Positions 6,216 to 61,745 of a stretch of 64,000 nt of DNA are shown one piece after another. Position 1 is the first letter of the stretch. The number at the start of each line of letters is the position of its first letter. A program made the position numbers and the translations under genes. Origin of the DNA: Malania oleifera (taxonomy: Eukaryota; Streptophyta; Magnoliopsida; Santalales; Ximeniaceae); contig NC_080422.1 of NCBI RefSeq assembly GCF_029873635.1, forward strand, positions 9,517,764 to 9,581,763, given 5' to 3'. The notes beneath the pieces are model-generated. The model ran no database searches. It was given only the letters and a program-made list of their open reading frames with translations, and had not been told where the DNA came from.

Positions 6216-8170
6216 TATGACAACCGAATAAAAATGATATTTAAAATAATAGAGAGAAAGGAGAATTATCAGAGGCCTCGTCGACGAACACAGAGGATTC
6301 ATCGACGAGGGCATAAGAGGGCCTCGTCAACGAAGCCAAATTTCATTGACGAGGAAATACTGAGAGAGATTTTTGAGCAGAATAAATTTCGTCGATAAGG
6401 AGTGGATTTCGTCAACGAAATTATTGAAGGACTTGCCGACGAGATGACGTGGCTCATCGATGAATCCAGCCCTATAAATATCAAAAATCTGGATTTTAAC
6501 TTCAAAATTAAGCAAACTCTCTCCCTCTCTCTCCTCCCTACGACTCCCTCTCCTTCTTTCTTGGATTTTGGGCCGAATTTACGCTAGTTCAACAATCTGA
6601 AGCCACCACGACACTCTTGGGGAAGTTCTCTCCAAATTTTCCAGAGCGGATCGTTGGTGAAAATAAGTTGAAAATCATCCCTAAGTTGAGGTAAGGCTTT
6701 TTAAGCCAAATTTGGTCTTGCGGTAGTTATAGGAAATGATATACACGTGGAAATACTGAAGTTTAATATTGAGAGTTTTCATTTTCAAGGTATTGATAAG
6801 GAAATTCTACGGGTGTTAGACCAGGATATTTTAGGGGCGTTCTCAGTAGTCAGGTAAGCGAATAAACTAAAACAGTTATTTTCCACACGTATTATTATTA
6901 TTATCAGCAAAGTAATTTTCAAGGAATATGTATTATATTTCAATATATTTGAGAAAATGTATGTTATTGGGAAAATACTGCTATTATACAGGAATGTAAT
7001 TTTAGAATGAAACATACGTATTTACTCAGCTTTGTGTGGCATGAATATTATTTTTCATGAAATGTATTATGTTACGACAATTTTACGAATAAGCATGTTT
7101 TCAGGAATTACGTAATAATGCAGCATATGATGATTTTGAAATACATGATAATTGATTTATATTTAGAATGTTATATATGAAATGTTCAGCACGAGGACGT
7201 AATTATGAAATGTTCGGCACGAGGCCGTAATTATGAAATGTTCGGCACGAGGCCATAATTATGAAATGTTCAGTGCGAGGCCGTATTTATGAAATTATGA
7301 AAGATGCTATAATATCATATATTATATGTTATCAGAACCCAGATGTTAGTTTAGTTTAGTTTTAGGAGCTCGGTACCATAGCTATATAGATCAGATATCT
7401 ATGTTCAGACTTGTGCTAACCACCCCACGAGGGGGTGGGAGATGGATAGTCGATGTGGCTTTCAGTGTAGAGTTGTAGACGTCCACCTGGCAGTCCGAAC
7501 CAGGGTGCTGCGGGCCCATCATACTTACAGACATTTTTGACTCGACGTTGGTCGGCCAGCCATTGTCGGGTCCCGCCTTCGGGTTACACAACCCATCATG
7601 GGAGGTAATACATGACATTACCTTGCTATTCATCCTAGGTATGTTTTCAGTATTATCAGATATAACAGACGATTTATGAATGATATGAGTTACTAGAAAA
7701 TATGAAAGTATATGATGATTCAGTATGTTATGACGAATGTTTATAGATATTTGAAATGTATTGTATATGTATAACTGCATTAAATGTTCATATTGCCACA
7801 TAGCTGTATTTAGTTTATTTTCCCTTACTGAGAAGTGTCTCACCCCCAAACTTAATATATTTTTTTAGGAGACCCTGAGAGACCTGCGAGTCGTGGCCAC
7901 ACAGCTGTAAGATTTTGTTCTAGGATCAGGATTATTTTGTTGTGAGGTCCTAGTTGTATTTGGAACGTTATGAGAGATTGAAAATATATGTATGCTATTT
8001 TGGTGTAAATAAACTCTGATATTATGTTTTATGGTTGGATGATTAAGATTTTATACTAACTGTTGCTTAGATTTCCACTGTGATTGAAAGGTGTCCCCGT
8101 TACCCACGAGTTCGGGTTGATATTGTTATTATTTATGTTTATTATGTGATAAGTTAAGGGGGACGTTACA
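6216..8170 (+). mobile_element. Solo LTR copy C nested inside copy B
   Basis: Full-length family-1 LTR (about 1,955 bp) on the plus strand, opposite to its host LTR, so 4401-8170 looks like a large imperfect inverted repeat. It is flanked by a 5-bp TSD, TCATC, at 6211-6215 and 8171-8175. Its U3 start (GACAACCGAATAA) matches the U3 terminus of copy B at 8465 read in reverse. Order: U3 with GTCGACGA repeats (6275-6460), TATA box CCTATAAATA (6472-6481), CT-rich leader, a 31-bp minisatellite at 7187-7285, and a GACGTTACA end at 8170. Younger than B by position. Fossil, no coding part. Confidence 0.85.
7187..7285 (+). repeat. 31-bp minisatellite inside LTR copy C
   Basis: Three to four copies of a unit like GAAATGTTCGGCACGAGGCC. 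Copies A and B have a minisatellite at the matching place but with different unit sequences, so the site re-expands independently in each copy. Confidence 0.85.
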
Positions 8171-8470
8171 TCATCTCATCGACGAGTCTTGTAGAAAGTT
8201 CGTCAACGAACTTGAACCTTCGTCGACGAATTTCAGGCTTCCAAAAATCCTCTTTCGGTATCTTATTGTCGACGAAACGGAACTTCGTCGACGAGATCCT
8301 GAAGCATCTTCGTCAACGAAACCCCTGTGTTCGTCGTCGAAGCCTAGAAAATTCCTTAGGATTATCCCATCCAAAATGCAACGTCGTCAACTGCCTCCTT
8401 CTGTTCCTGTTTCCATTTCCCTTTCTTCTTATTATTTAAATACCATTATTCTTCGGGTCATTACAGAAGT

Positions 8471-8550
8471 GCTTTGGTACGTGAGTATTAAAAAAGAAGT
8501 GAGTTTGCAATAGATATATGAATGTCACTAAGGGTATTTATGATAAAAAA
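8471..8550 (+). mobile_element. RTE-type LINE fragment, right half
   Basis: Continuation of 4318-4400 after the nested LTRs: LWYVSIKKEV.. lines up with LWWVLEKKGV of the RTE copy at 58410-59279, followed by a decayed stretch. The family reading REVLW is split between REV and LW by the LTR. Confidence 0.65.
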
Positions 8551-8880: not shown

Positions 8881-10794
8881 ATGACAGGAAGCTTAAACAG
8901 TACTCTGGTGACGGTATTGTTGTATATAGGGGTACATCATAACCGAAGCAGATGGTGTTAGTTATAGTAGTCTACCAGTTCGACCAATTCGAATTGGTCA
9001 TAGGTGTAAATTAAATAAATTATATACAAAGATATATAAATATTTGCATATTGATCTAGATCACTATGCATTGCAGGTGACCACAAGATACCCTTTGCGA
9101 GGGTTCAATAATACAGTCTTCTATAAGGCTGTTCCCATATTTGATGATTATGGTTGCGCATTGTGTTGGACATACACTACGTAGGTGAGACATATTTAAC
9201 AATGCAATTATATGTCGAAACCATTCCTCAAATGGGTGTAATCGTGGCTAGGCAGCCAGAGGCGCCTACCGAGCATTTGGATGAAGTCGAGGAAGACACC
9301 CAACAAACACGTCATCTTGATGTGAGTGTGGAGGTTGGTGGGATGCCTAGTGTCTATTTTAACGAATATTTAGGATGATCATTTGAGCCGCCGACATACG
9401 AAGCACCTGTTCCTGACACGTATCCGCAAGGAGGTTGTGAAGAAGTCCTAACAGAGGGTCCATCATCGTTGTTCACCATTGCGAACGACGCATTGGATAA
9501 GGGCATGAACATTACGAACGATGTTCATCTTGAAGATGAAAACACATATGAGCAGGAAATAGGTGAAGGGTTAAATGAAACCCACGATGATGTGAACCCA
9601 CCCTCAATCATATATGTGGACGGGACACACTTGTACAGTAAGTACAAGAGCAAACTCCTAATTGCGACGTGCCTGGATGCAAATAGGCAAATATTTCCCC
9701 TTGCATTCGCTATTGTGCAAGAGGAAAGCTTGGACACATGGAATTGGTTTCTGTGTTGTCTTCGTTCCATTACCAACAGGGACGACATTTGCCTTATATC
9801 AAATCGGCATTCAGAAATTCTCGCTGCAGTACAGCACAATCCTGATTAGCAACCACCAAGTGCTCACCACCAATTATGCCTTCGACATGTGGTGAGCAAC
9901 TTTAATACGAAAGTATGGAGTGTCAATCTTAAGCGAATGGCTGAGTGAGCAGGAAGAGAGCATCGGGTGAGAAAATTTGACATGTGGATGGAGAGGATAT
10001 TCGATGAGGGTGGGGAGCCAGCGAAGTCATTCTTCGATCAGATCCCTCCTCATATCTGGACTCAGTGCCACAACGGTGGAAAAAGGTATGGGAACATGAC
10101 CACTAACCTTGTCGAATGTTTCAATGCCATCCTAAAAGGCACTTGTAGCCTTCCTATAACAGCCCTTGTGCAACTAACATTTTATCGCGTTACACATTAT
10201 TTCAATAGACGACGGGAGGCAGCTCGTAACACAATATATGGAGGAAATGCAGTTACTCCGCACATATTGCTAGCAATGGAAAGAAGGAAGTTGAAGGCGA
10301 CCGGACATCGAGTCACGACGTTCAACTGGTCGAGGGGTAGTTTTAACATCACAACTGCACAGTTGGGGCCACATAAAGGGAATAACATCCAAACTTTGAG
10401 CATCCAGAGATGCGAATGCTCTTGCGGGAAGTGGAAAGCTTTACACTTTCCCTGCTCCCACCTTCTCGCCACCTATGCAGAGACATGGCTAAATGAAAAC
10501 CCGTATGTTGAGTCATGTTGGACCACTGCCAACCACTATGCGACATATGCTATGGATTTTCATCCGATTATGCACTAGGCATATTGGTCAGCATCCTCGT
10601 TGCCGAATTTGCAGGCAAATCTTGCATATGCTCGACATAAAGGTCGGCCTAGGAGCTCACGTATACACAACGAGATGGACGCATGGGAAGGTAGGAAGAA
10701 TATCACGTGCAACATATGTCATCAAGAAGGACATAACCGCACGAGGTGTCCGAGAAGGACACAACCCGGGGATGCAGCGGGACCTTCGCACTGA
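8880..10794 (+). pseudogene. MULE (Mutator-like) mudrA-type transposase, decayed
   Basis: Remnant of the DDE transposase that would cut and reinsert the MULE. Seen in order: an N-terminal stretch (VSYSSLPVRPI.. and HYALQVTTRYPL..VFYKAVPIFDD, about 8950-9150, in broken frames); YLTMQLYVETIPQ (9190-9230); the catalytic-core part PPSIIYVDGTHLYSKYK..LLIATCLDANRQIFPLAFAIV (9598-9720) and DDICLISNRH (9781-9811), where the family has an acidic residue (ISDRH); LCLRHVVSNFN (9870-9900); the C-terminal third with the SWIM zinc finger CECSCGKW..PCSH (10412-10460); and a CCHC knuckle CNICHQEGHNRTRC (10708-10750). Many codons between the N-terminal part and the DDE core are missing, and stops and frameshifts separate the pieces, so it is non-functional. 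It lies 365 bp (not counting the hAT insertion) before a plant-mobile-domain gene on the same strand, which suggests one two-gene element. Confidence 0.88.
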
Positions 10795-11299
10795 CCTATC
10801 ACTTATAGGTTAATGTAGAGTCCTATTATTACCTTTAATTTCCATAAAAAGGGCAAAAGAATGATTTGAGGTGCTGCCATATGTCCACAGTTCATGCCTT
10901 CTTACATCCCATATATTGACCCCATTTAGAAAAAAAAAAATATTCTGAATGTTCCAAAGAGCCCTTGTGATTAAGGCTATGTTCAAAGGATAATAAATTC
11001 CTTTAGAATCACAGTATGGATAGTCCATAATCTAAAGCTCAATAATCTCTTTGAGTTCCCTCATGTCCCTATTACTGTTATAGTGACTATTTAATAGGGG
11101 TGTACACGGTTCGGTTCGGTTCGGTTTTTGCCAAAACCGCCAACCGAACCGAACCGAACTCCTCGGTTTTCAAAATGACTGAATCAAAACCAAACCGTAT
11201 ACCATCGGTTTATGAACAAACCAAACCGTGAACTTTGCGGTTCGGTTCGGTTATTTTCGATTTTACCGAATTTTGAACTATCAAAAGAATATTAATACT

Positions 11300-11582
11300 T
11301 GAGCCTGGGAGCCACAGCCCATTACGGCATTACAGAACTCCTGGGCCAAGGCTTTAATTGCAAAGCCCAAACCATGAGACATGTTAAAAAGCGGATCCAT
11401 ACAAAATATATAAGGTGGGATCCTAGTTCACTTCCCATTTCCAACTGATGTGGGATGGCTAACAATTAGCATGTGGTTCCTGCAGCTGCATGTGCCTTCG
11501 CAAATCTGCTTGCCCTCTTTGCAGTTCACCAGTGGCCACCGGCCTCTCTCTCTCTCTCGCAAACACACACACACAAACAGAG
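11300..11582 (+). promoter_or_regulatory. Captured promoter and 5' leader of a ribosomal protein gene
   Basis: Inside the hAT element, directly ahead of the RPS17 fragment. It holds several site II-type words (CTGGGCC at 11341-11347; AGCCCA at about 11316 and 11365, the reverse form of TGGGCT), a TATA box (AAATATATAAGG, about 11404-11415) and a CT-then-CA-rich leader (11545-11578) ending just before an ATG at 11583. Site II elements are typical of plant ribosomal protein promoters. Their presence shows that genomic DNA, not an mRNA copy, was captured. Confidence 0.65.
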
Positions 11583-11910
11583 ATGGGGGTGTGCACTGTG
11601 CACTGCACACCATGACGGTGAAGAAATCTTCTCGGCAGCCGGCAGGTGATCGAGAAGTACTACTCTCGCATAGTCGCATGACCCTGGATTTCCATACCAA
11701 AACGAGATCGCCGACTTCTCCTGTTCTCCACCCACCTCATGAAACGGATCCAGAAGGCAGAAGGGTTCTGTGTTCTGTCCGTCGTGTCCGAGGCATCTCT
11801 CTCAAGCTCCAAGAAGAGGAGCGCAAGCGTCGCATGGAGCCATGGACTTCGTCCCAGAAATCTCCGCCATCCAGACCGACCAGAGGTGGATTCGGAGGTG
11901 GTTTCTCGCC
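11583..11910 (+). pseudogene. RPS17: Captured 40S ribosomal protein S17 gene fragment
   Basis: RPS17 is a small-subunit ribosomal protein of about 130-140 aa. Recognisable pieces in order: ATGGG..GTGTGC at the start (family MGRVR), TVKKSSRQ (about 11615-11640), VIEKYYSR (about 11647-11670), MTLDFHTKT (11678-11704), STHLMKRIQK (about 11728-11757), RGISLKLQEEERKRRM (about 11790-11838) and MDFVPEISAIQTDQ (11842-11883). The middle (family KK..EEVAIIPSKRLRN) is missing, small insertions and frame changes separate the pieces, and the C-terminus is replaced. It cannot make S17. It lies in a hAT element and is therefore a transposon-borne host gene copy. The motif order makes chance similarity very unlikely. 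Confidence 0.88.
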
Positions 11911-12203
11911 GACGACTGGCGATCCAACACGGCAACACCAACAGGCAACATCTATAATATATAATTATTTTTTATAAATTCGGTTTTCGATTTTTTCGGT
12001 TCGGTTTTGGTCCAAAATCGAAACCGAAATCGAAACCGAAATTTTTTGTATTTCAAAACCAAAACCGCAAACCGAAAAATCAAACCGAAATGTGTTTCGG
12101 TCCGGTTTTCTATTTTTCGGTAAATTTTGTACACCCCTATTATTTAACACTGCTTCCTTTTTGCAGGATCAATCCAAGGCCATCTAATTCCAGTGTACTG
12201 ACG

Positions 12204-14390
12204 ATGGGCGATCGTCACCAATCCAGTCGGGCGTGGACCGATTCGCATGCTGACGTCTTATATTGCCGAGGGGGCACATGGGTCGTACACGACAAGATAG
12301 GCACGGACCCCCGCATTGTTGATTGGATACAAAAGGCGAGCTTCTATGGGATATACCAGATTGGCCATATCCAGTTGGATTGGCATCTCGTGACCGCCTT
12401 GGTGGAGCGATGGAGGCTGGAGACACACACGTTCCACCTACCGCACGGGGAGGCGACTATCACCCTCCAAGATGTGGTGGTGTTGTTTGGGCTGCCGATT
12501 GATGGGAGGCCTGTCACTGGTCGTACTGCTGGACTAGTACAGGAGAGGGGCGCCGATCTGGGGGGAGCATTGTGTCGCATGTGCGAGAGATTGTTAGGGG
12601 TAGTGCCTCCCGAGGGTGAGATGGTTAGTGCCCACATCCGCATGTGGTTTCTTGAGGGTGAGATGTTTTGCCAGCTCCCGGCAGCTGCAGATGATCATAC
12701 AGTAGCGTGCCACACACGTGTCCACTTGCTGCAATTGATATGTGGGATGTTGTTCTGCAACCTCTTGGGGAGTTATGCGCACTTGATGTTCCTTCCACTC
12801 CTCACGGAGCGAGCAGAGATACACCAGTATAGTTGGGGCTCCGCAACATTAGCGTGGCTTTACTGGGTGATGTGCCGCGCTGTAGACGTGTCCCACTCAC
12901 ATATCGGAGGAGCACTCCGCTTATTACAGGTTTGGGCGTGGGAGAGATTCACGTCCTTAGCTCCTACGCACCTGGGTGTCCGGTGTCCTATTGAGGGACC
13001 ATGATGGTCGCCCGATTGACCCAGCCCCACTCGCATGAAGGTTAGTAACTTCATTCACAATGCATTCGTCGTATGAGTACTATGAATATTAATTCGTAGT
13101 ACGTACTAGTCGTCACACCTGTTCACTTACGTATTATTTTGTACAGGTGTAGGGATCGGTAGTTGGCGCCAAATGTTGCGCAATATACGCTGCCCTGGTA
13201 CAAGTTCGAGTTGGACATGCACTGGGAGCCTAAGGTATAGTCTCATTCAAGTGTATCCACCGTATTGCATATTTATCAGATATCCCTACACACCTCTTAC
13301 ATTTTGCATATGTTTACACGTAGTTCATATGGGCGCCCTTCACGGATGACATTTTAGCTGACCTACCGGCTGATTATGCAGTTGGGAGGGACCTCTGGGT
13401 AGCCCGAATGCCACTCATATATTTTCATATTATCGAGTGGCACCTCCTTGACCGAGTGATACGTTGGTTCGGCTTTTGGCAAGACATTCTAGACCGCTTT
13501 TCGACATAAGGGGTCGATGTATGTGGGGACGACCTACACGAGATTGATGGCCGCGGTCGAGGGAATACGGATTGGGCTGCCGAGCACGCGATGTACGTGA
13601 ATATGTGGGGGCATCAGCAGGAGTACATCATACAGGGAGTGGATCCGATGGGTTCAGAGGACCCATATTATACGTGGTATAGGTCCATCACACAACGCTT
13701 CATAGATAGGAATGCAACAGTCTACATGAGCCTCGTAAGAATACTCTAACGCATACCTAATTTTTTACTGTTTACGTTAGGTTGTCAATGTGGTAACCAC
13801 TTTTTTCGTATGCTACAGGTAGACATACTACACCAAGTCGACCTACTCTCTTCAGATCCCACTGTGAGCGATTTAGCAATAGCATGTTTGGACATTGTCT
13901 ACGAGGACAGGCGATGAATCCCTACACCACGCCAGGCCCCGACACCACGAGGAGGTCGAGCAGCTTTCTTCAGTTGTCCCTCGAGTCCGACCTTCTTGCC
14001 ACCCGTTGTACAGGTGAAGTACGTATTTGGTTTGTCCGCATCGTATGCCCCATCAACAGCCGACGATATTGTGGGCCTATCCAATAGGCAGGCAGACGCC
14101 CCGTCTGACTCTGCCACCACCTTGTTGATGTCATACCTGTTAGACGACCCTCTCAATGCGGAGGAGGTGGATGCACTCACGTTGCCACCTCAGACTCGTC
14201 TAGAGACTTCATACGACTTAGCTCCCTGTCTGCTTCACATGGAGATAGATGATCTAGTACCTATGGGTGAAGATGACAGACATGTAGCACATCAATGAGC
14301 CCGGACGCCAGACGTAGAGGAGCAGCTAGGAAAGGGCAGACGCAAACGATAGCCACCTCGACACCAGAGACAACCTCCTTGCGGCACCGA
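12204..14390 (+). pseudogene. Plant mobile domain (PMD, aminotransferase-like) gene of the MULE, decayed
   Basis: First exon 12204-about 13003: GTWVVHDKIGTDPRIVDWIQKASFYGIYQIGHIQLDWHL..ALVERWR-type sequence, followed by TFHLPHGEATITLQDV and VLFGLPIDGRPVTG, the hallmark of PMD proteins (relatives of MAIN/MAIL1 and of 'phosphatase 7 long form homolog' annotations). Later blocks: NVAQYTLPWYKFELDMHWEP (13174-13235), FIWAPFTDDILADLPADYAVGRDLW (13323-13400), FHIIEWHLLDRVIRWFGFWQDI (about 13424-13490), EYIIQGVDPMG..YTWYRSITQRFI (13621-13720) and a basic tail near 14300-14390. GT-AG introns appear near 13041-13146 and 13235-13322. Frameshifts and stops interrupt several exons, so it is a pseudogene. 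PMD genes are known cargo of some plant MULEs and LTR elements; the order transposase then PMD on one strand fits that. Host-gene origin is less likely. Confidence 0.82.
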
Positions 14391-23344: not shown

Positions 23345-26300
23345 AATGTATATATGCAATATGAAATTATGTGCTACAATGTAATATTCTAGTAAAATCC
23401 TTCTGAATATGTTCCTTCAAGGATATTTGTGGCAATATTGATGAATGGAAATCAATTTTTGACTTACAGGTTCTTGTTTCAGTGTCAAAAACTAGCCCCA
23501 TTGTTCTATATCTTAGGGATGTCGAAATGCTCCTATTTAAATCACAGAGGATATATAACTTGTTTCAGAAAATGTTGAAGAAATTATCTGGATCAGTGTT
23601 GATCCTTGGTTCACGAATTATAGATTCAGATAATGACTACAGAGAAGTGGATGAGAGGCTTACTGCTCTATTCCCTTACAACATTGAAATCAGGCCACCT
23701 GATGATGAAACTCACCTAGTCAGCTGGAAAACTCAGCTGGAGGAGGATATGAAAAGAATTAAATTTCAGGATAACAAAAACCATATCATGGAAGTACTTG
23801 CTGCAAATGATCTTGACTGTGATGATCTGGATTCGATCTGCTTGGCAGACACTATGGTTCTTAGCAACTATATACAGGAGATTGTAGTATCTGCAATTTC
23901 ATATCATTTGATGAACAACAAGAATCCTGAGTACAGAAATGGAAAGCTCATTATTTCATCCAAGAGGTATGGTTAACATATTATTCCATGTTGTTTTTCT
24001 AAATTCTATTTACTTACATTTTTGTGGCCATGAAACAGTTTGTCCCATGGATTAAGTCTATTCCAGCAAGGTAAGTCTACAGACAAAGATAATTTAAAGC
24101 TGGAGGCGCAGCTGGAGACACAAGTTGAACATTCTAAGGTTTATCGTAGTCCTCCTCCTGTTTTATTGGCAGTTTGGGGGCAGTGAACAGACTATTAACA
24201 TAATTTGTCCTTATTGCTGTGGTTGCTTTTCTATCTAATAGGAAGCAGGAGGAGGAGAGGCTGCTGGTGCAAAGCCTGAAACTAAAGTTGAAAGCGCAGC
24301 CCCTGAAAAAAAAACTGGAGCAGATACATCATCAGCTCCAGCAGCAAAGAAAGATGGTGACAACTCACTGTCAAAAGTTGCGGTCAGTCTAGTTTTCTTA
24401 GTATTCCACTAGAACATAATATTGCTCATGTTTTGTTGCAAATATTGTGATTGATTTTTTTTGCTTCCAACTTTTATATGTTTTTTTTTTCAGAAAATTT
24501 TTATCATGTGTTTTATATAATGTACTCGTGCAGTAATGCTTACATCATTTTTTAAAAAAATGTTTCATTCTTTTTGTGTATATAAAAATAGAGTACAGGG
24601 ATGCACTAAAATACTTGCACAAACTCCTATAAAAAAATTTTTGCAGATTTTTAAGTGCCCTAACAAGAAGAATAGAATGATTCCATGGCATGATACAATT
24701 AGCATTGTCAATTTTGCACAGTTCTACATAGATCATCTGTTCACAAAGTAGGCAATGCTCATCTTCCAACCCATTTGTCAGAACTGATAATATGGTATGG
24801 TATATTAAAACTCCTAACAGGATGTTCCTCCTGACAATGAATTTGAGAAGCGCATAAGGCCAGAGGTCATACCGGCAAATGAGATTCGCGTGACATTTAC
24901 CGATATTGGTGCCATGGAAGACATTAAAGAATCCCTTCAGGAACTGGTAATGCTCCCTCTTCGAAGACCAGATCTCTTTGAAGGAGGCCTCCTAAAGCCT
25001 TGTAGAGGAATATTATTGTTTGGGCCTCCTGGGACTGGGAAGACGATGCTAGCCAAGGCCATAGCCAAGGAGGCTGGAGCAAGCTTCATCAATGTGTCCA
25101 TGTCTACCATCACTTCTAAATGGTTTGGAGAGGATGAAAAGAATGTACGAGCTTTATTCACTCTTGCAGCGAAGGTCTCCCCAACTATTATTTTTGTAGA
25201 TGAAGTTGATAGCATGCTTGGGCAGCGGAGTAGAGCAGGGGAGCATGAAGCCATGAGGAAGATCAAGAATGAGTTCATGACTCATTGGGATGGGCTCCTA
25301 ACTGGACCTGGTGAGCGTATCCTTGTTCTCGCCGCAACCAACAGGCCATTTGACCTTGATGAAGCCATTATCCGGCGTTTTGAGCGCAGGTATTTGCTAC
25401 ATTTTTTAGAGCTCTGATAGAACCACACTGCATTCTTTAAAAAACACCCCAATATATCCACTGATTTGTTTTAGATAAGGTAGAGTGATTGGATTTTTTT
25501 TTTTTGATACTTTAAAAAATAAAAAGCATGTTTGTGATGTTATTTCAAAATTTCCCAATCTTTGATCTTTACGTGATCATAAAATTTTGTCATGAACATC
25601 TCTAGCACAAGTATTTAAGTTTGCAAAACGTTGTTAAAGAATAAGCACCAATGAAGTTTTTGGGCTTGAGGTGTGCCTATTCTGATGTTTACTGTGATGA
25701 ACAGGATCATGGTTGGCCTCCCATCTGCAGAGAACAGAGAAATGATCATGAGAACTCTTTTGTCTAAAGAGATAGTATCAGAAGGACTAGACTTCAAGGA
25801 GATTGCAACTATGACAGAAGGATTTAGTGGAAGTGATTTAAAGGTTTGCATTTTCCCAGTAATGGCATGAGTGTTTTGATGCATAAATCATGTGGTATTG
25901 ACCTCCATTACTGTTGAAAACAGAACCTGTGCACAACAGCTGCTTATGGGCCCGTCAGAGAGTTAATACAGCAAGAGAGACTAAAGGATTTAGTAAGAAC
26001 TTTCATGCATCTCAGCCATCTCTTCCTTTCTTCCCTTATTTCCTGTTATTTTCAAGTACAGGAAAAAAAAATTCCTAGCAGTCCGTTGTTTAAATTTGAG
26101 TACTTGCAAAAGTAACTTTTAATTTTGGTTATGCCATTTGACTTGTTTCCTGCAGGAGAGAAAACGGAAAGCTGAGGAAGGGCAGAATTCAGAGGACGGT
26201 TCAGGCACAGTGGAAGGCGGTCAAGAAAAAAGAGTAATTACCCTAAGGCCTTTAAATATGGAAGACTTCAAGCAAGCAAAGAGTCAGGTAAATCTTTCTC

Positions 26301-48300: not shown

Positions 48301-51300
48301 AAAGTTACTAGAAGTAAATTTGACTTGCGAAATAATGGGAGGAACATTTCAAAGGGTTTTCTTTTTCTGATTTACAGCATGATTGGCTGGCTGCGCTGTT
48401 TCAATTTATTTTGATTCTTTCTTCTTGTATCTTTTAAGGATGATTTCTTGTGCACCTTGTTGTACTTCTCCTTATTATTAAAATCTCTTCTTTTCTATCA
48501 AAAAATAACAACAACAATAATAACAATATAATAATAAATAAAATTACTAACAACAACAACAACAACAACAATTATTATTATAATAATGATAATGTTTTAA
48601 AATGTAAAAAATATTTAAATCTCAAAAAAATAAAAAAATAAATCAATAAAATAATATTAATTAAAGTCATACTTAAAGAATACAAAATTAAATAGTTCAG
48701 CATTAGGGGAATTTTCAAAAAGTGAATTATTTTTCATTACATTCCAGCCCATTGAAAGATAAAAAACATTTGAAATTAATCAAAAATTTTTACTCCAGAA
48801 GTCATTCTATGGAAATAACCAAACACAATAATCACATTGCAACAGCAAATCAATTCCTGCCTCGATTCCATTCCTACCTCGATGTCTATCTTTGTTTTAT
48901 TCCATTCCACTGGCACTAACCAGACATCCTAAAAGTCCTAAGCCACAGAACTTTGTAGAGCGGAAGGCAGAATAGTGAGTATCAACTGTCAACTCAAATA
49001 GGTTTTGCACCATTAATTACCAATTATTTGATTTCATCTATGCCAGTCAAGGCACACATGTGTGTTTGTGTGCATGTGTGTGTCATCCTCATTGTCATCA
49101 TCAAAGAACAGTACTATTAATTCACTAAAAGATAAATCAGAAAATATGTACTGAGTTCTCAACTTAATTGTCATTGGTTCTGGATGCAAGAACATGGGAA
49201 AGATTCTTACTCTTTAAATATTGCTTGCATTCGTTTTTGACCTTCGGCCACAGCTGTTGGATCCATACCCTGAAAAAGATGAATATAATATTGTATTAAC
49301 ACAAAACCAAGCTGGGGTTGGCCCAAACAATACAAATAGTCAACAAAGCCCAGCTAGATTCCAGAGGAAATTTATGACCCAAAAAGCCCAAAAAGAAGAT
49401 AGTGGCCACCAATCTACAGTCACTCAGTGCACCCAGGAAGGCTCGAGGTAAACAGTCATGTTTTAGAGCCAGGTAGTGGTACCACAGTGCAGGTTAGGAA
49501 TTTCTCTTTTTTCCAATGGATTTAATTATTTATGTAAAAAATATGTGCAGGTCTGATTCAGTTCAGTTTCGGCTAAAATCATAACCAGAACCCTATTCAA
49601 AACATTGATTTTGATTGTCAGTTTTTGTATTATGAAAATAGAATCAACATCTCGATAATTCGAGGCTCATTGTTCACCCATTAAAACATCTTTTAGGAAG
49701 GGGAAAAAATGTTGAACATTTAACAAATCCTCTAAATTTCTGCAGAAGGAAAAAACTGTCGATAACTGTAGTAATTAAATAAAATCAATGAACAGTGAAT
49801 AAAACTGCATGAACTTAAAATTTCATTTACATAAAATCTAGAAGAAAAACATGAGTTTCTACACAAAAACACTAGCTGTGTGCACATGCTTAAGAACATT
49901 TATGAATTTTTTTTCCAATAACAAGAAAAACTGGAATTAGAGGTAAAATTGAGTAGTTTGAGGAAGTTATTTCAATTATTCCATGTTATGTATTTTGCTA
50001 ATAATGAAGCCATGTTATATTTTAAAAAATTATATTAATCACCATCCATCTTCAGATTATTTATATAAAGTTTAAAGGGTGCAGGTAGAAAACTACTCTG
50101 AGCTTCTCTCTATTAATAGCACACGCATTAAATCAATGTCCTTAGGTTTTGGGAAGACTTTGGATGGGAAATTCTGTGCTTTGCACTTCTTTTCCTTGTT
50201 TGTATAGGCTGTCCTTTTTGCTTAGTGATTCTGTTTATTTGTTTTTTATTTCTCGTTGGGACGGATTCTCTTGGGATTTTGATTTTGGAGGGCCATTAAT
50301 GATAAGGAGGTGTCGGAGCTCACCTTTTTATTGTGTGCATTGGAGGATAGTCATACTCCAACAAATGTGGACTATCAGTCATGGGTCCTTGATTCTTTGG
50401 GGAAGTACTCTTGCAAATAGTTTTTGGAGTATTTGACCCATACAAACATGTCTTTCCCGCTTCATTGTACTATTTGGAAGGCCAAAGTTCCCAATAAAAT
50501 TAAGGCTTTTATTTGGTTAGCTGTTTTTAATAGAGTTGACACTAACAATCTATTGCAGAGGAGGCCTTTTTATGGCATTATTTTGTGGATGTTTGTTATT
50601 TATGATTCGATAGTTCAGAATGTCTCTCATTTGTTTCTTCATTGTTCCTTTTCATGGAGGACGTGGAACAATTTATTCGGAATATTTGGAGAGAACAGGG
50701 TGTGACCAGAGGACGATTTATTGGCTATGTCCTTTTTCAGGTTTTGGGAGCAGATTTGGATGGAGCTGATTGCTCATATATTCATGGGAAAGAGGATGTC
50801 TTCCTCTATGATTTGGGATAGGATCCAGTTCTTTACCTCATTGTGGGCTTTGCAGCTGGTTGTTTTAAAGTATTGTCTTTTCAGGCTTACAGCATGAATG
50901 GAGGCCAGTGCTGTTTCGATATTGTTCTGTACTTCTTTTCTATTCTAAGGAAAATTTCTTTTGCTCCTTTTGTCCCTTTCTCTTCTCTTTACTAAAATTT
51001 CTTCTTACCTATCAACAAAAAAAATTCCAAACCAATTCATTAACACATCATTTTACAATAAGTAACATATCATAGTTACTGTAATTATGTCAATACATAA
51101 TTATATTGACACGTATTAGCTTCCAAACAAGATTTTGATGCTAAAGAGGAGACAATTTTTGAAGAGGGATTAAAAGGTGGGGTGGAAAGGAGTAAAAAAT
51201 TAGAAGCTTCCTTGGGAGGGAACTCTGATGTTTTTTTGTCCATAATTCTAACAGATTTGAGGCCAACAAGGTTTATGCTCATCAGAAGGCAGCTCGTATG

Positions 51301-57119: not shown

Positions 57120-59640
57120 AACATGATCAATGAGTAGCTCTCATCGAATTAATAGTTGGACAAACAAGTACCTCTCTTATGCAGGCAGAGTTCAATTAAT
57201 AAAGTCAGTTTTGTTGGGTATTTATCATTATTGGGGCTCATGTTTGGTTCTTCCCAACTCAGTTTTGAATTGCTTGGAGAAGAAATTTAAATCCTTCCTC
57301 TGGAAAGGTAATGATCTCTCAAACTCTTCGGGAAATATTAGTTGGGAGAAATCTGCAAACCTATCTCTGAAGGTGATCTTGGAATTATGACTTTATTCAG
57401 ATTTTGGGGCTAGAAATACTTACGCCGTCTCCAAATTACTTGGTTATAGGTTCATCTACTTAAAAACAGAAACATATGGGCTATATAGCCCCCTCATGCA
57501 ATTACAACTTGGTAACAACAACAACAACAAAACCAAGCCTTAGTCCCACTAAGTGGGGTCGGCTATATGAATCATTTTCCACCAATTTATGCGATCATGG
57601 ACCATTTCTTTTGATAGATTCAAAGATATTAAATCCTTACTCACTATCTCCTCCCAAGTTATTTTAGGTCTATCCCTACCCCTTCTACTGCACCCCACAG
57701 TAACTAAGTCACTCTTCCTCACACGTGCACTATAAGGCCTACATTGCAAGTGTCCATACCATCTGAGTCGTCCTTCTTTTATCTTATCTTCTATAGGAGC
57801 TACATCTAACTTACCACGAATATGTTCATTCCTTAATTTATCTTTCAATGTTATACCACTCATCCATCTAAGCATCCTCATCTCGGCAACTTTTACTTTT
57901 TGGATATTATGTTTCTTCGTCGCCTAACATTCTGATCCATATAGCATAGCTGGTCTTATAGCTGTCCTATAAAACTTCCCTTTCAATTTTAAGGATATTC
58001 TACGATCACATTGAACACTTGAAGAACTTCTCCATTTTACACAACCTGCTTTAACTCTATGCATTACATCATTTTCAATTTCTCCTTCAGCTTGCATAAT
58101 AGATCCAAGGTATCGAAATCTACAAGTGCTATTTATTTCTTCATCATCAAGTTTAACTTTGTCTCCAATATTCCTCCTATCATTATTAAAATTACATTTC
58201 ATATATTCTGTTTTATTTTTACTTATCTTAAAGCCTCTAGATTCCAAAACTTCTCTCCATAATTCTAACTCAGCCTCTACTCCATCCCTAGTTTCGTCAA
58301 TTAATACAATATCATCTGCAAACAACATACACCATGGAACCTCCTTTTGAATACTCTTAGTCAATTGGTCCATCACTAAAGCAAAAAAATAAGGACTCAA
58401 AGCAGATCCTTAATGTACACCTATGGTAATTGGAAATTCTCTAGTTTCTCCATCTATAGTCTTTACACTAGTCATTACTCCATCGTACATATCCTTAATG
58501 ACATTGGTATACCTACAACATACACCCTTTTTTTCTAAAACCCACCATAGAACTTCCCTAGGTATCCTATCATATGCTTTCTCAAGGTCAATAAATATCA
58601 TATGCAAGTCCCTCTTCTTTTCCCTAAACTTTTCCATTAATCTTCTTAAAAGATAAATAGCTTCTGTGGTAGATCTCCCAGGCATAAAACCAAATTGATT
58701 TTCTGAGATCTTCGTTTCTAACCTTAACCTTTGTTCAACTACTCTTTCCCATAGTTTCATCGTATGACTCATAAGTTTAATTCTACGATAGTTATTACAA
58801 TTTTGAATATCTCCTTTATTTTTGTATATAGGTATTAAAGTGCTTTTCCTCCATTCATCTGGCATTTTCTTAGTTTTTACAATTGTATTAAATAAATTAG
58901 TTAACCATATAATTCCGTCATCACCCAAGCATTTCCAAACTTCAATTGGGATGTTATCTGGTCCCATAGCTTTCCCATCTTTCATCTTTTTTAGTGCAAA
59001 CTTAACTTCGTTAACACTAATTTTTCGAATAAATCTTATATTTTTAGTCTTTTCCTCATTTGACAATTCTAAATTTAAGCCTTCTATTTGGTTTGCGTTA
59101 AACAACTTACTAAAGTAACTTCGCCATCTTTCTTTAATATCTTCGTCCTTAACCAAGACAATATCATCCTCACTTTTTATACATTTTACATTTCCTAAGT
59201 CCTTGTTCTTCCTTTCTCTAGCTTTAGCAAGTTTAAATATATCTCTTTCCCCTTCTTTTGTACCTAATCTATCATACAAACTATTAAATGATCTATATTT
59301 AGCTTCACTAACGGCCCTTTTTGTATCTTTTCTTGCCTCCTTATATTTTTCAAAGTTATCGCTGTTTCTACATTTTTGCCACGTTTTATACCAAATTCTT
59401 TTTGTCTTTATGATTTTTTGTACATCTTTATCCCACCACCAACTTTCTTCACCAATTACAACTTGGTAAGAATCTTAAAAATCAGAGATAAAGTGGATCT
59501 ATTATTCAAGTATAACATTAGTAATGGAAGGAACACTTCATTTTACTTTGACAATTCGCATCCTTTTGGTCCCCTCTACAAGAGATATGGTTCAACCATT
59601 CAAAATGAGTTTTTTTTCCCCCAAAAAGCATGGTCTCTTC
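57120..59640 (+). mobile_element. L1 LINE fragment split by an RTE insertion
   Basis: Left part 57120-57515: RINSWTNKYLSYAGRVQLIK..LEKKFKSFLWKG, the region after the L1 reverse transcriptase. Right part 59454-59640: ILKIRDKVDLLFKYNISNGRNTSFYFDN. The break coincides with the RTE TSD. Truncated at both ends. Confidence 0.82.
57516..59453 (-). mobile_element. RTE-type LINE, 5'-truncated, young, with 16-bp TSD
   Basis: TSD AATTACAACTTGGTAA is perfect at 57500-57515 and 59454-59469. The endonuclease is missing. Reverse transcriptase and C-terminal region remain almost open: 59279-58410 (289 aa; VNEVKFALKKMKDGKAMGPD, STLIPIYKNKGD, ISENQFGFMPGRSTTEAIYL, MIFIDLEKAYDRIPREVLWW), 58400-57924 (PWCMLFADDIVLI with the FADD catalytic motif; FRYLGSIMQ) and 57881-57549 (RMLRWMSGIT, RLRWYGHLQ, WEEIV). 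These are one frame broken by only two stops: TAA at 58412-58410 where relatives have Gln (VHQGSALSPYFF), and TAG at 57926-57924 where relatives have Trp (ECWATK). The tail is (GTT)n. Confidence 0.92.
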
Positions 59641-61745
59641 AATTATCAAAGAAAAATGCTGGTTTTGGCTGAGAAGATCTTACTATTTTAGTGGCTGATG
59701 ACGTGGTGGAAGACATTTGTAGGAGGAAGAAGAGGGGTTTCATTTTTAAATTGGATTTTGAGAAGGCCAATGATAGAATTAATTGGAGTTTTTTTGATAA
59801 AATTTTTGTGAGGAACGGTTTCAATGAGTGTTGACCCAGGTGGTTAGGGGTTGTGTGTCTAATGCGTGGTTCTCAATAGTGGTGAATGGGGAACCTAAGT
59901 CCTGTTTTAGGGCTTCGAGAGGGTATTAGAGAGAGTGATCCACTTTCCCCTTTTTTATTCATCATAGCAGCCGATGTGTTGAGTAGATGGCGGATAGGGC
60001 TGGGAATAGGGGGATGGTTTGAGGCTCTGAAGTGGGGAGCGAGAGAGTGGTGGTATCTTGTCTTCAGTTTGCAGATGATACCATTTTCTTTCTAGAAGAT
60101 CACAACCCTTCTTTCAGCAGTGTTCTGGGTATCTTCGAAGTCTTTGAGAGAATTTTGGGGCTTAAAATAAATATGGGGAAAAGTGGTTTAGCAAATATTA
60201 ATGTGCATGTCGATCGAGTTAGGTTGGTCTTCTGTTGTGGGGCGCAGTATATTGGAATGGCCTCTGACTTATCTGGGGGTCCCGTTGGGGGACAATCCTA
60301 GACATGCAGAATTTTGGAATCCAATAGTGGAGAGAGTGGCTAAGAGGCTTGATGGTTGGAAGGGGGCTCTTTTTCTCCTTGGGGGTAGAATCACCCTCAT
60401 CCAGTCCTGCTTATCTAGAATTCTGTTATATCATTTGTCTATTTTTAGGATTCCATCGAGGATTGCTAAGAAGATTGAGAAAATCCTGAAGGATTTCTTG
60501 TGGTCCAGAATCGGGGGTTTTAGGGATCATTCAATAAGGTGGGATAGAGTTTTTAGGTGCAAATTGGAGGGAGGGCTGTCTTGAAAATTTGGTGTCTAAA
60601 AACCTCGCCCTTTCAGCTAAGTGGTTATGCAGTTTTCCCTGAAAGATCACTCCCTTAGGCATAGTGTGATTAGAAGCACGTATAGGGTGGGTGAGAATGG
60701 GTGGGGTACCAACATTAGTCTACAATTTTTATTGGAAAGCCTATGGAGATCTATTTCTCAAATCTATCCTTTGTTTATGCCTCACATCAAATTTGTGGTG
60801 GGGATGGGTTCTTGGATTCAATTTTGGAAAGATCCAAGATTGAGCAATGATATTCCAGCCAAATTTTTCCTCGTCTCTTTCGTTTGAGCTCAGGGCAAGA
60901 TAGTGTAATTTATTTCTTTGTGGTTGACTCGGGTGGCCCTCTGGTTTCACGGAACTTTCATTTTAAGAAGATCTCTTAATGATAGAGAACTGTTGGAAAA
61001 CTTTCATCCTTGCTGTCATTATTGAATAACTGTCATCATTCTTCAGCTAGAGATACTTGCTCTTGAGTTGTGGATATTTTGGGGGTGTATTATTGTAAAT
61101 CTATTTTTAAGTTTATGATCCTTTCCAGTTCTTGTTTTCCCCTATATTCATCTATTTGGAAAGCAAAAGCTCCCCCAAAAATTAAGGCTTTCATACGGCT
61201 GATTGTGCATTCTAAAATCAACACTAATAACTGGTTGCAGATCAAGAGACCTTTGAAGTCCATATCTCCAGATGTTCGCGTGCTATGCTATTTGAATTCT
61301 GAAACAGCACCTCATCTATTTTAACACTGATTAGGCGTAGAGAATCTAGAATAATTTATTTGGTGTGATGGGAGAATCTTGGGTCTACCCAGCATCAGTG
61401 GACAAAATTGTTATCTATTTTTTTTGGGTGTTTTGTTAGAAGGAAGGCAAGGGTTGCACTGTGGAAATGCAATATTTTTGCAGTGTTGTAGGGATTATGG
61501 TTGGAGTGCAATGCACAGATTTTTTCAGGGAGAAAATTGAATTGGCAGCTGGTTTGGGAGAGGTTCATTACCTGGAGATTCTTTATGGTCTGTTGGTTTC
61601 AGTTGTTTTAAGGGAGTTAGTTTTTTGGAGCTTCAGCAAGAATGGAAGATTATTCCAGTTATTGTCTTTTTAGTTTAATTTTTCTGGATTTTTTCTCCTT
61701 TTTGCAAATTCTCCTCTTATCAATGAAATATCTTCTTTTGCTATT
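59640..61745 (+). mobile_element. L1 LINE, 5'-truncated, from the RT palm to the 3' tail
   Basis: KKRGFIFKLDFEKANDRINW (59729-59790), GEPKSCFRAS (59890-59920), DPLSPFLFIIAADVLSR (59938-59988), QFADDTIFF (60068-60093; the FADD box), LKINMGKSGLANI, PLTYLGVPLGDNPR (60260-60303), AKRLDGWKGALFLLGGRITLIQSCLSR and, after decay, zf-RVT pieces (SIWKAKAPPKIKAFIRLIVHSKINTNN, 61150-61235). The tail is near 61745. Frameshifts separate the blocks. It is distinct from the fragment to its left, because the domain order restarts. Confidence 0.85.

Follow-up and report, generated by a model that had tools for sequence, protein, structure and literature searches.

A putative composite Pack-hAT element in Malania oleifera carrying a broken RPS17 fragment and a cluster of footprint-like near-duplications

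In the 64-kb stretch of DNA analysed here (hereafter the window), a non-autonomous hAT-type element with a moving unit of about 1045 bp encloses a broken fragment of an RPS17 (eS17) gene. Our preferred reading, to which we assign a probability of roughly 0.6, is that the element is a composite Pack-hAT, in which a copy of S17 was visited by hAT elements that came and went, and was then carried off by two flanking copies. This reading draws on two features overlooked by the initial annotation, which had described an RPS17 gene captured with its promoter: the two arms of the element align with each other in direct orientation, and the S17 part contains a cluster of near-duplications spaced by 7-9 nt. 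Coordinates of all features are collected in Table 1.

Table 1. Features of the element and of the DNA it carries. Coordinates are those of the window; complementarity refers to the outer junction bases, and insertions are those in the alignment with eS17.
Feature	Coordinates	Strand	Remarks
Left flanking 8-mer CTATTTAA, presumed target site duplication	11087-11094	.	7/8 identical to 12140-12147
Outer left terminal inverted repeat TAGGGGTGTACA	11095-11106	+	
Putative left MITE unit	11095-11288	+	Inner end about 11278-11288 without recognisable TIR; 11288 estimated
Captured DNA upstream of the S17 ATG, possible RPS17 promoter and leader	11289-11582	+	
Footprint-like near-duplication, spacing 8	11319-11334	.	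Upstream of coding part; 1/2 junction bases complementary
Broken eS17 coding fragment	11583-11903	+	Residues ~1-103, in several frames and with an internal deletion
Footprint-like near-duplication(s), spacing 7, run of 9	11589-11605	.	Overlapping registers counted once
Footprint-like near-duplication, spacing 7	11632-11646	.	Insertion 11630-11636
Footprint-like near-duplication, spacing 8	11665-11680	.	1/2 complementary; insertion 11664-11671
Footprint-like near-duplication, spacing 8	11715-11730	.	2/2 complementary; insertion 11713-11717 with cheaper gaps only
Footprint-like near-duplication, spacing 7	11750-11764	.	Insertion 11751-11757 with cheaper gaps
Footprint-like near-duplication, spacing 7	11764-11779	.	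Inside insertion 11763-11785
Footprint-like near-duplication, spacing 9	11775-11791	.	2/2 complementary; inside insertion 11763-11785
Footprint-like near-duplication, spacing 8	11832-11847	.	2/2 complementary; insertion 11834-11841
Footprint-like near-duplication, spacing 8	11924-11939	.	2/2 complementary; S17 homology uncertain; insertion 11925-11931 with cheaper gaps only
Putative right MITE unit, oriented as the left one	11975-12139	+	Inner end without recognisable TIR; start estimated
Outer right terminal inverted repeat	12128-12139	-	
Right flanking 8-mer TTATTTAA, presumed target site duplication	12140-12147	.	7/8 identical to 11087-11094

Ends, arms and surroundings of the element

The 12-bp inverted ends initially reported as perfect are so (TAGGGGTGTACA at 11095-11106 and 12128-12139, 12/12 matched), and the perfect match extends to 15 bp (11092-11106/12128-12142) once the palindromic flank edge is included. 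TAGGGGTGTACA is a short terminal inverted repeat (TIR) of the type (T/C)AGGG..., a start typical of plant hAT termini. The flanks CTATTTAA and TTATTTAA have the 8-nt length of the perfect target site duplication claimed for them but agree at only seven of the eight positions, leaving an 8-bp hAT duplication with one mismatch. The inverted ends and the near-matching flanking 8-mers together uphold the assignment of 11087-12147 to a non-autonomous hAT-type element. Within the 64-kb window the TAGGGGTGTACA 12-mer has no further exact copy, its two extra matches with two mismatches being at chance level, and all seven occurrences of GGTTCGGTTCGGTT in the window at ≤2 mismatches (0.10 expected) fall inside the element. 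A search of viral_contigs with two patterns returned no relatives of the termini; eight bacterial loci in genome_contigs that matched the end pattern (seven Brevibacterium, one Opitutaceae) were judged unrelated by their titles, and among the matches listed for literature retrieved by the element's sequence words, none had a title that concerned plant hAT elements.

Compared in direct orientation, the two arms (left, 11115-11278; right, 11995-12132) are co-linear, with identity at 112/132 aligned bases when gaps are excluded and at 112/170 columns when they are included. The score of this alignment is 94, compared with 45 for the inverted orientation, on which ground we rejected a single long inverted repeat as a description of the arms. 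Because the arms are rich in repeated, GGTTCGG-like words and are partly self-complementary (scores of 76 and 74 when each is aligned with its reverse complement), we chose Markov nulls of orders 2-5 as the control; a score of 94 was attained by one of 4000 null pairs, an order-4 null of the left arm that reached 103. The repeat spans most of the unit, and both arms finish at corresponding points near their right-hand ends (AATTTTGAAC/AAATTTTGTAC). Each unit has a perfect outer end, and no inner TIR was found in either unit at ≤2 mismatches.

Judged from these alignments, the element looks like a composite of two same-orientation copies of one MITE of about 165-195 bp, whose inner ends would have been lost. 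A single MITE that had been opened and filled predicts halves that differ or are inverted relatives of each other, so the direct homology of the arms favours the composite. Arm homology combined with absent inner TIRs is the pattern of a composite Pack-TYPE element, that is, two flanking copies that have lost their inner TIRs. In the Pack-TYPE model, as set out in a maize study, neighbouring insertions are mobilised as one after their internal TIRs have been deleted or mutated and the outer TIRs kept, and such neighbours mostly share an orientation (12/15 local maize hAT pairs; PMC8903248).

The neighbours of the element lie in the same orientation as it does: MULE transposase and SWIM reading frames on one side (9379-10575; E=6.5e-12 and 2.2e-6), and a plant mobile domain (PMD) reading frame on the other (ending at 13001; E=7.9e-48). 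The MULE and PMD matches, together with that to eS17, point to a plant origin of the DNA. We considered whether the element is enclosed by MULE inverted ends and rejected this, as the five pairs listed included no clear MULE pair. A splice-acceptor-like stretch (tttttgcag) was noted by eye just past the element, at about 12160-12167. Further away in the window, a minus-strand frame at 16554-16937 matches Alfin (E=1.3e-12) and PHD-finger (E=1.2e-9) domains; of the plus-strand reading frames at 23407-25417, the second matches the AAA ATPase family (E=6e-40); the frames at 1544-2041 and 8121-8513 share the pattern HL(V/I)DES ... (I/V)DET ... YYLNTI (BLASTP, 28/101 identical, E=9e-7); and frames at 57549-59474 and 60192-60584 resemble, by eye, pieces of a LINE reverse transcriptase.

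The RPS17 fragment and the DNA ahead of it

The presence of RPS17 pieces in the correct order, as initially described, is corroborated by Pfam, structural and frame-tolerant matches to eS17. A single frame matches PF00833 (Ribosomal_S17e) at E=1.7e-5, above the curated cut-off; eS17 chains rank first among solved structures, led by eS17w 9h3g_BB (E=2.7e-7), and we take the top-ranking chains to be plant ones; and a frame-tolerant alignment of 11571-11960 with eS17 scores 234.7, compared with at most 49.7 in 40 shuffles. This fragment supplies the host gene DNA that a Pack-TYPE element holds between its ends. About residues 1-103 of ~141 can be recognised, in pieces that occupy several frames, with many frame breaks and an internal deletion of 13 residues under default gap costs or 5+11 under cheaper ones. 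Frame breaks, internal deletion and fading near residue 103 leave no full-length intact RPS17 reading frame, and an eS17 tail sought by alignment beyond 11903 was unconvincing. RPS17 DNA is thus inside the element, but not as a whole gene, and the description of a captured gene is overstated because short insertions interrupt the coding part, which fades near residue 103. The core is also crossed by a 187-codon open frame (11414-11977), of a length reached in 5/1000 shuffles, which we take for a by-product.

The promoter and leader words attributed to the DNA upstream of the S17 ATG are indeed there, namely three site II words (TGGGCY at 11316, 11342 and 11364), a TATATAA at 11407-11413 and a CT-rich stretch at about 11545. 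However, three site II words are reached by 48/2000 shuffles of 11289-11582, and the S17 ATG at 11583 is preceded by four others (11448, 11455, 11471 and 11490) that lie downstream of the proposed transcript start (~11440). Over the whole window site II words are fewer than expected (33 vs 39.7); a second trio of them, on the minus strand at 49320-49390, is perhaps a promoter. It is plausible that the upstream DNA is a candidate RPS17 promoter captured along with the fragment. Capture at the DNA level, which the initial annotation had argued from the promoter words, is likely, because the fragment is not followed by a poly(A) run (the longest A run in 11881-11990 is 3 nt), the element contains about 290 bp from upstream of the ATG, and its paired flanking units are in keeping with capture by a composite transposon.

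Near-duplications in the captured DNA

With a minimum length of 6 nt, we counted nine exact repeats (6-9 nt) at a spacing of 7-9 in 11583-11955. Shuffles of this interval contain a mean of 0.26 such repeats and a maximum of 3 (2000 shuffles), windows of the same size elsewhere a mean of 0.77 and a maximum of 6 (n=623), and GC-matched windows (81, overlapping) a maximum of 2; the other windows densest in repeats, around 3.6 kb, have a GC content of 20%. A further site at 11953 (TATAAT, spacing 7) was left out of the nine as AT-rich, but the GC-matched comparison and the tally of spacings count ten: five repeats at spacing 7 (11953 among them), four at 8 and one at 9, with none at 4-6, 10, 11 or 15-20 and one each at 12, 13 and 14. 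In the eS17 alignment, default gap costs yield insertions of 7, 8, 23 and 8 nt, and near-duplications overlap all four; cheaper gaps yield ten blocks, of which nine are overlapped, the exception being 2 nt long.

No excess of 7-9-spaced repeats is seen in 11301-11582, where the one site is matched by 397/2000 shuffles. The rates per 373 bp in other reading frames of the window (MULE 0.31, PMD 0.44, LINE-like 0.39, AAA 0) likewise show no excess, so the scars belong to the captured DNA and not to its present neighbourhood. The clustering and spacing of the near-duplications are very strong observations, to be read with the caveat that the 7-9 spacing was spotted in the same data prior to testing, and that adjacent sites overlap, which limits their independence, so that the statistics do not represent a clean prior prediction.

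hAT insertion duplicates 8 bp. Upon hAT excision, the flanks form hairpins whose repair leaves a footprint, and the joints left by Ac/Ds have at their centre the complement of the base beside the transposon end, with short deletions or P-nucleotides (PMC5873905). The nine repeats at spacing 7-9 have the form of such excision footprints, i.e. 8-bp duplications with a net gain of about 6-9 nt.

Each of the five spacing-8 sites consists of six matching bases and two changed junction bases. When these are taken together with the spacing-9 site, 10/12 outer junction bases agree with the predicted complement, which departs both from a one-in-three expectation (p=5e-4) and from the rest of the window (63/250 with overlapping registers counted; Fisher p=7e-5). 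Under the strictest control, confined to spacing 8 and runs of exactly six, the figures are 8/10 in the element and 27/64 elsewhere (p=0.028). The 655-bp core has three spacing-8 sites at which both bases are complementary, and the remaining window has five. At spacing 7 a complementary register is present in 5/5 core clusters, but also at 27/47 sites elsewhere, and these sites consequently add little. We consider the complement rule at the outer junction bases to be a moderate observation.

Origin of the element and comparison with known systems

In the sequence of events that we propose, hAT-type elements would have repeatedly entered an RPS17 copy and excised, each excision leaving an 8-bp target duplication with hairpin-processed junction bases. 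Two same-orientation copies would have remained, one upstream of the promoter-like region and the other inside the coding region near codon 103, and their inner ends would then have been lost. Transposase supplied in trans could have acted on the two outer ends, so that a unit of ~1045 bp moved as a single element and inserted, with an 8-bp duplication, between the MULE transposase and plant-mobile-domain frames. Our preference is for hAT visits that predate capture rather than follow it. Ten visits to ~650 bp are improbable under random insertion, and the footprint reading would therefore require local hopping or a preferred open target. One form that this could take, which we advance tentatively, is that one or a few hAT MITEs walked through the S17 copy by very short jumps, leaving footprints as they went, until two copies bracketed its front part and carried it off.

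Other accounts explain parts of this pattern. Error-prone gap repair within one MITE, with a template switch to RPS17 DNA after excision, could have duplicated part of the MITE and produced the short duplications by slippage. Abortive repair products of Ds are known to carry short duplications and filler DNA, and a single cluster of duplications in a single stretch suits a single event, but we think this route unlikely: it sits poorly with a direct repeat that spans most of the unit and stops at a corresponding point near each right-hand end, and slippage predicts exact copies, whereas all five spacing-8 sites carry two changed junction bases. Similarly improbable, in our estimation, is a composite element whose near-duplications stem from replication slippage, end-joining repair or incomplete insertions and not from hAT excision. 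The p-value of 0.028 in the strictest control and the failure of the spacing-7 sites to discriminate leave some room for it, but the concentration of spacings at 7 (five) and 8 (four), with none at most others, and the complementarity of 10/12 junction bases at spacings 8-9 count against it.

That the arms resemble each other through GGTTCGG-like words alone, the element being one MITE with an insert, would be in keeping with their word-rich, self-complementary make-up and with the one order-4 null of the left arm that hit 103; we hold this to be very unlikely, as only that one null in 4000 (orders 2-5) attains the score and the alignment takes in non-word stretches such as the AATTTTG end. 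Least credible of all is an mRNA-derived S17 copy acquired by the element. It might account for an S17 part without a recognisable intron, but not for the ~290 bp with promoter-like words that precede the ATG, the lack of a poly(A) run or the fading near residue 103.

If such a walk by very short jumps took place, the captured DNA would be a stepwise record of local hopping as a route of gene capture, and dense 8-bp scars might be a general marker of DNA captured, or soon to be captured, by hAT elements. Should the founder units and the scars of earlier visits prove real, capture by local hopping could be tested genome-wide by looking through Pack-TYPE elements for duplications spaced by 7-9 nt whose junctions are complemented, and hAT footprints would be one origin of the insertions that break reading frames in genes so captured. 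Among the matches listed, titles and abstract openings revealed no published report of numerous hAT footprints within one captured gene, a result that does not prove that none exists.

Pack-MULEs carry pieces of host genes, often 5' parts, between transposon ends, and MULEs make 9-bp duplications. The element described here shares with them a host gene piece, in this case a 5' part, between transposon ends, but differs in its 8-bp flanking match and hAT-like ends. The Ac/Ds footprints of PMC5873905 show an 8-bp duplication, complement-centred joints, short deletions and P-nucleotides, a pattern that the near-duplications here would share; those footprints were obtained experimentally from one known donor site, whereas here 9-10 candidate scars lie within ~650 bp and are read from the sequence. 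Maize Pack-hAT elements (PMC8903248) likewise have hAT-like ends, an 8-nt target duplication and gene DNA inside without a transposase, and an origin from two neighbouring insertions mobilised jointly is likewise proposed for them. In the passages covered, that study does not mention footprint-like scars in captured DNA, promoters or ribosomal genes, and its main text has 0 occurrences of the words 'promoter' and 'ribosomal'. The way in which DNA transposons acquire host genes has been argued mainly from comparison of family members, as in PMC8903248; here, by contrast, a single copy displays what appear to be both founder units in direct orientation together with a cluster of footprint-like scars, and so seems to hold both traces, that of its two founders and that of earlier visits.
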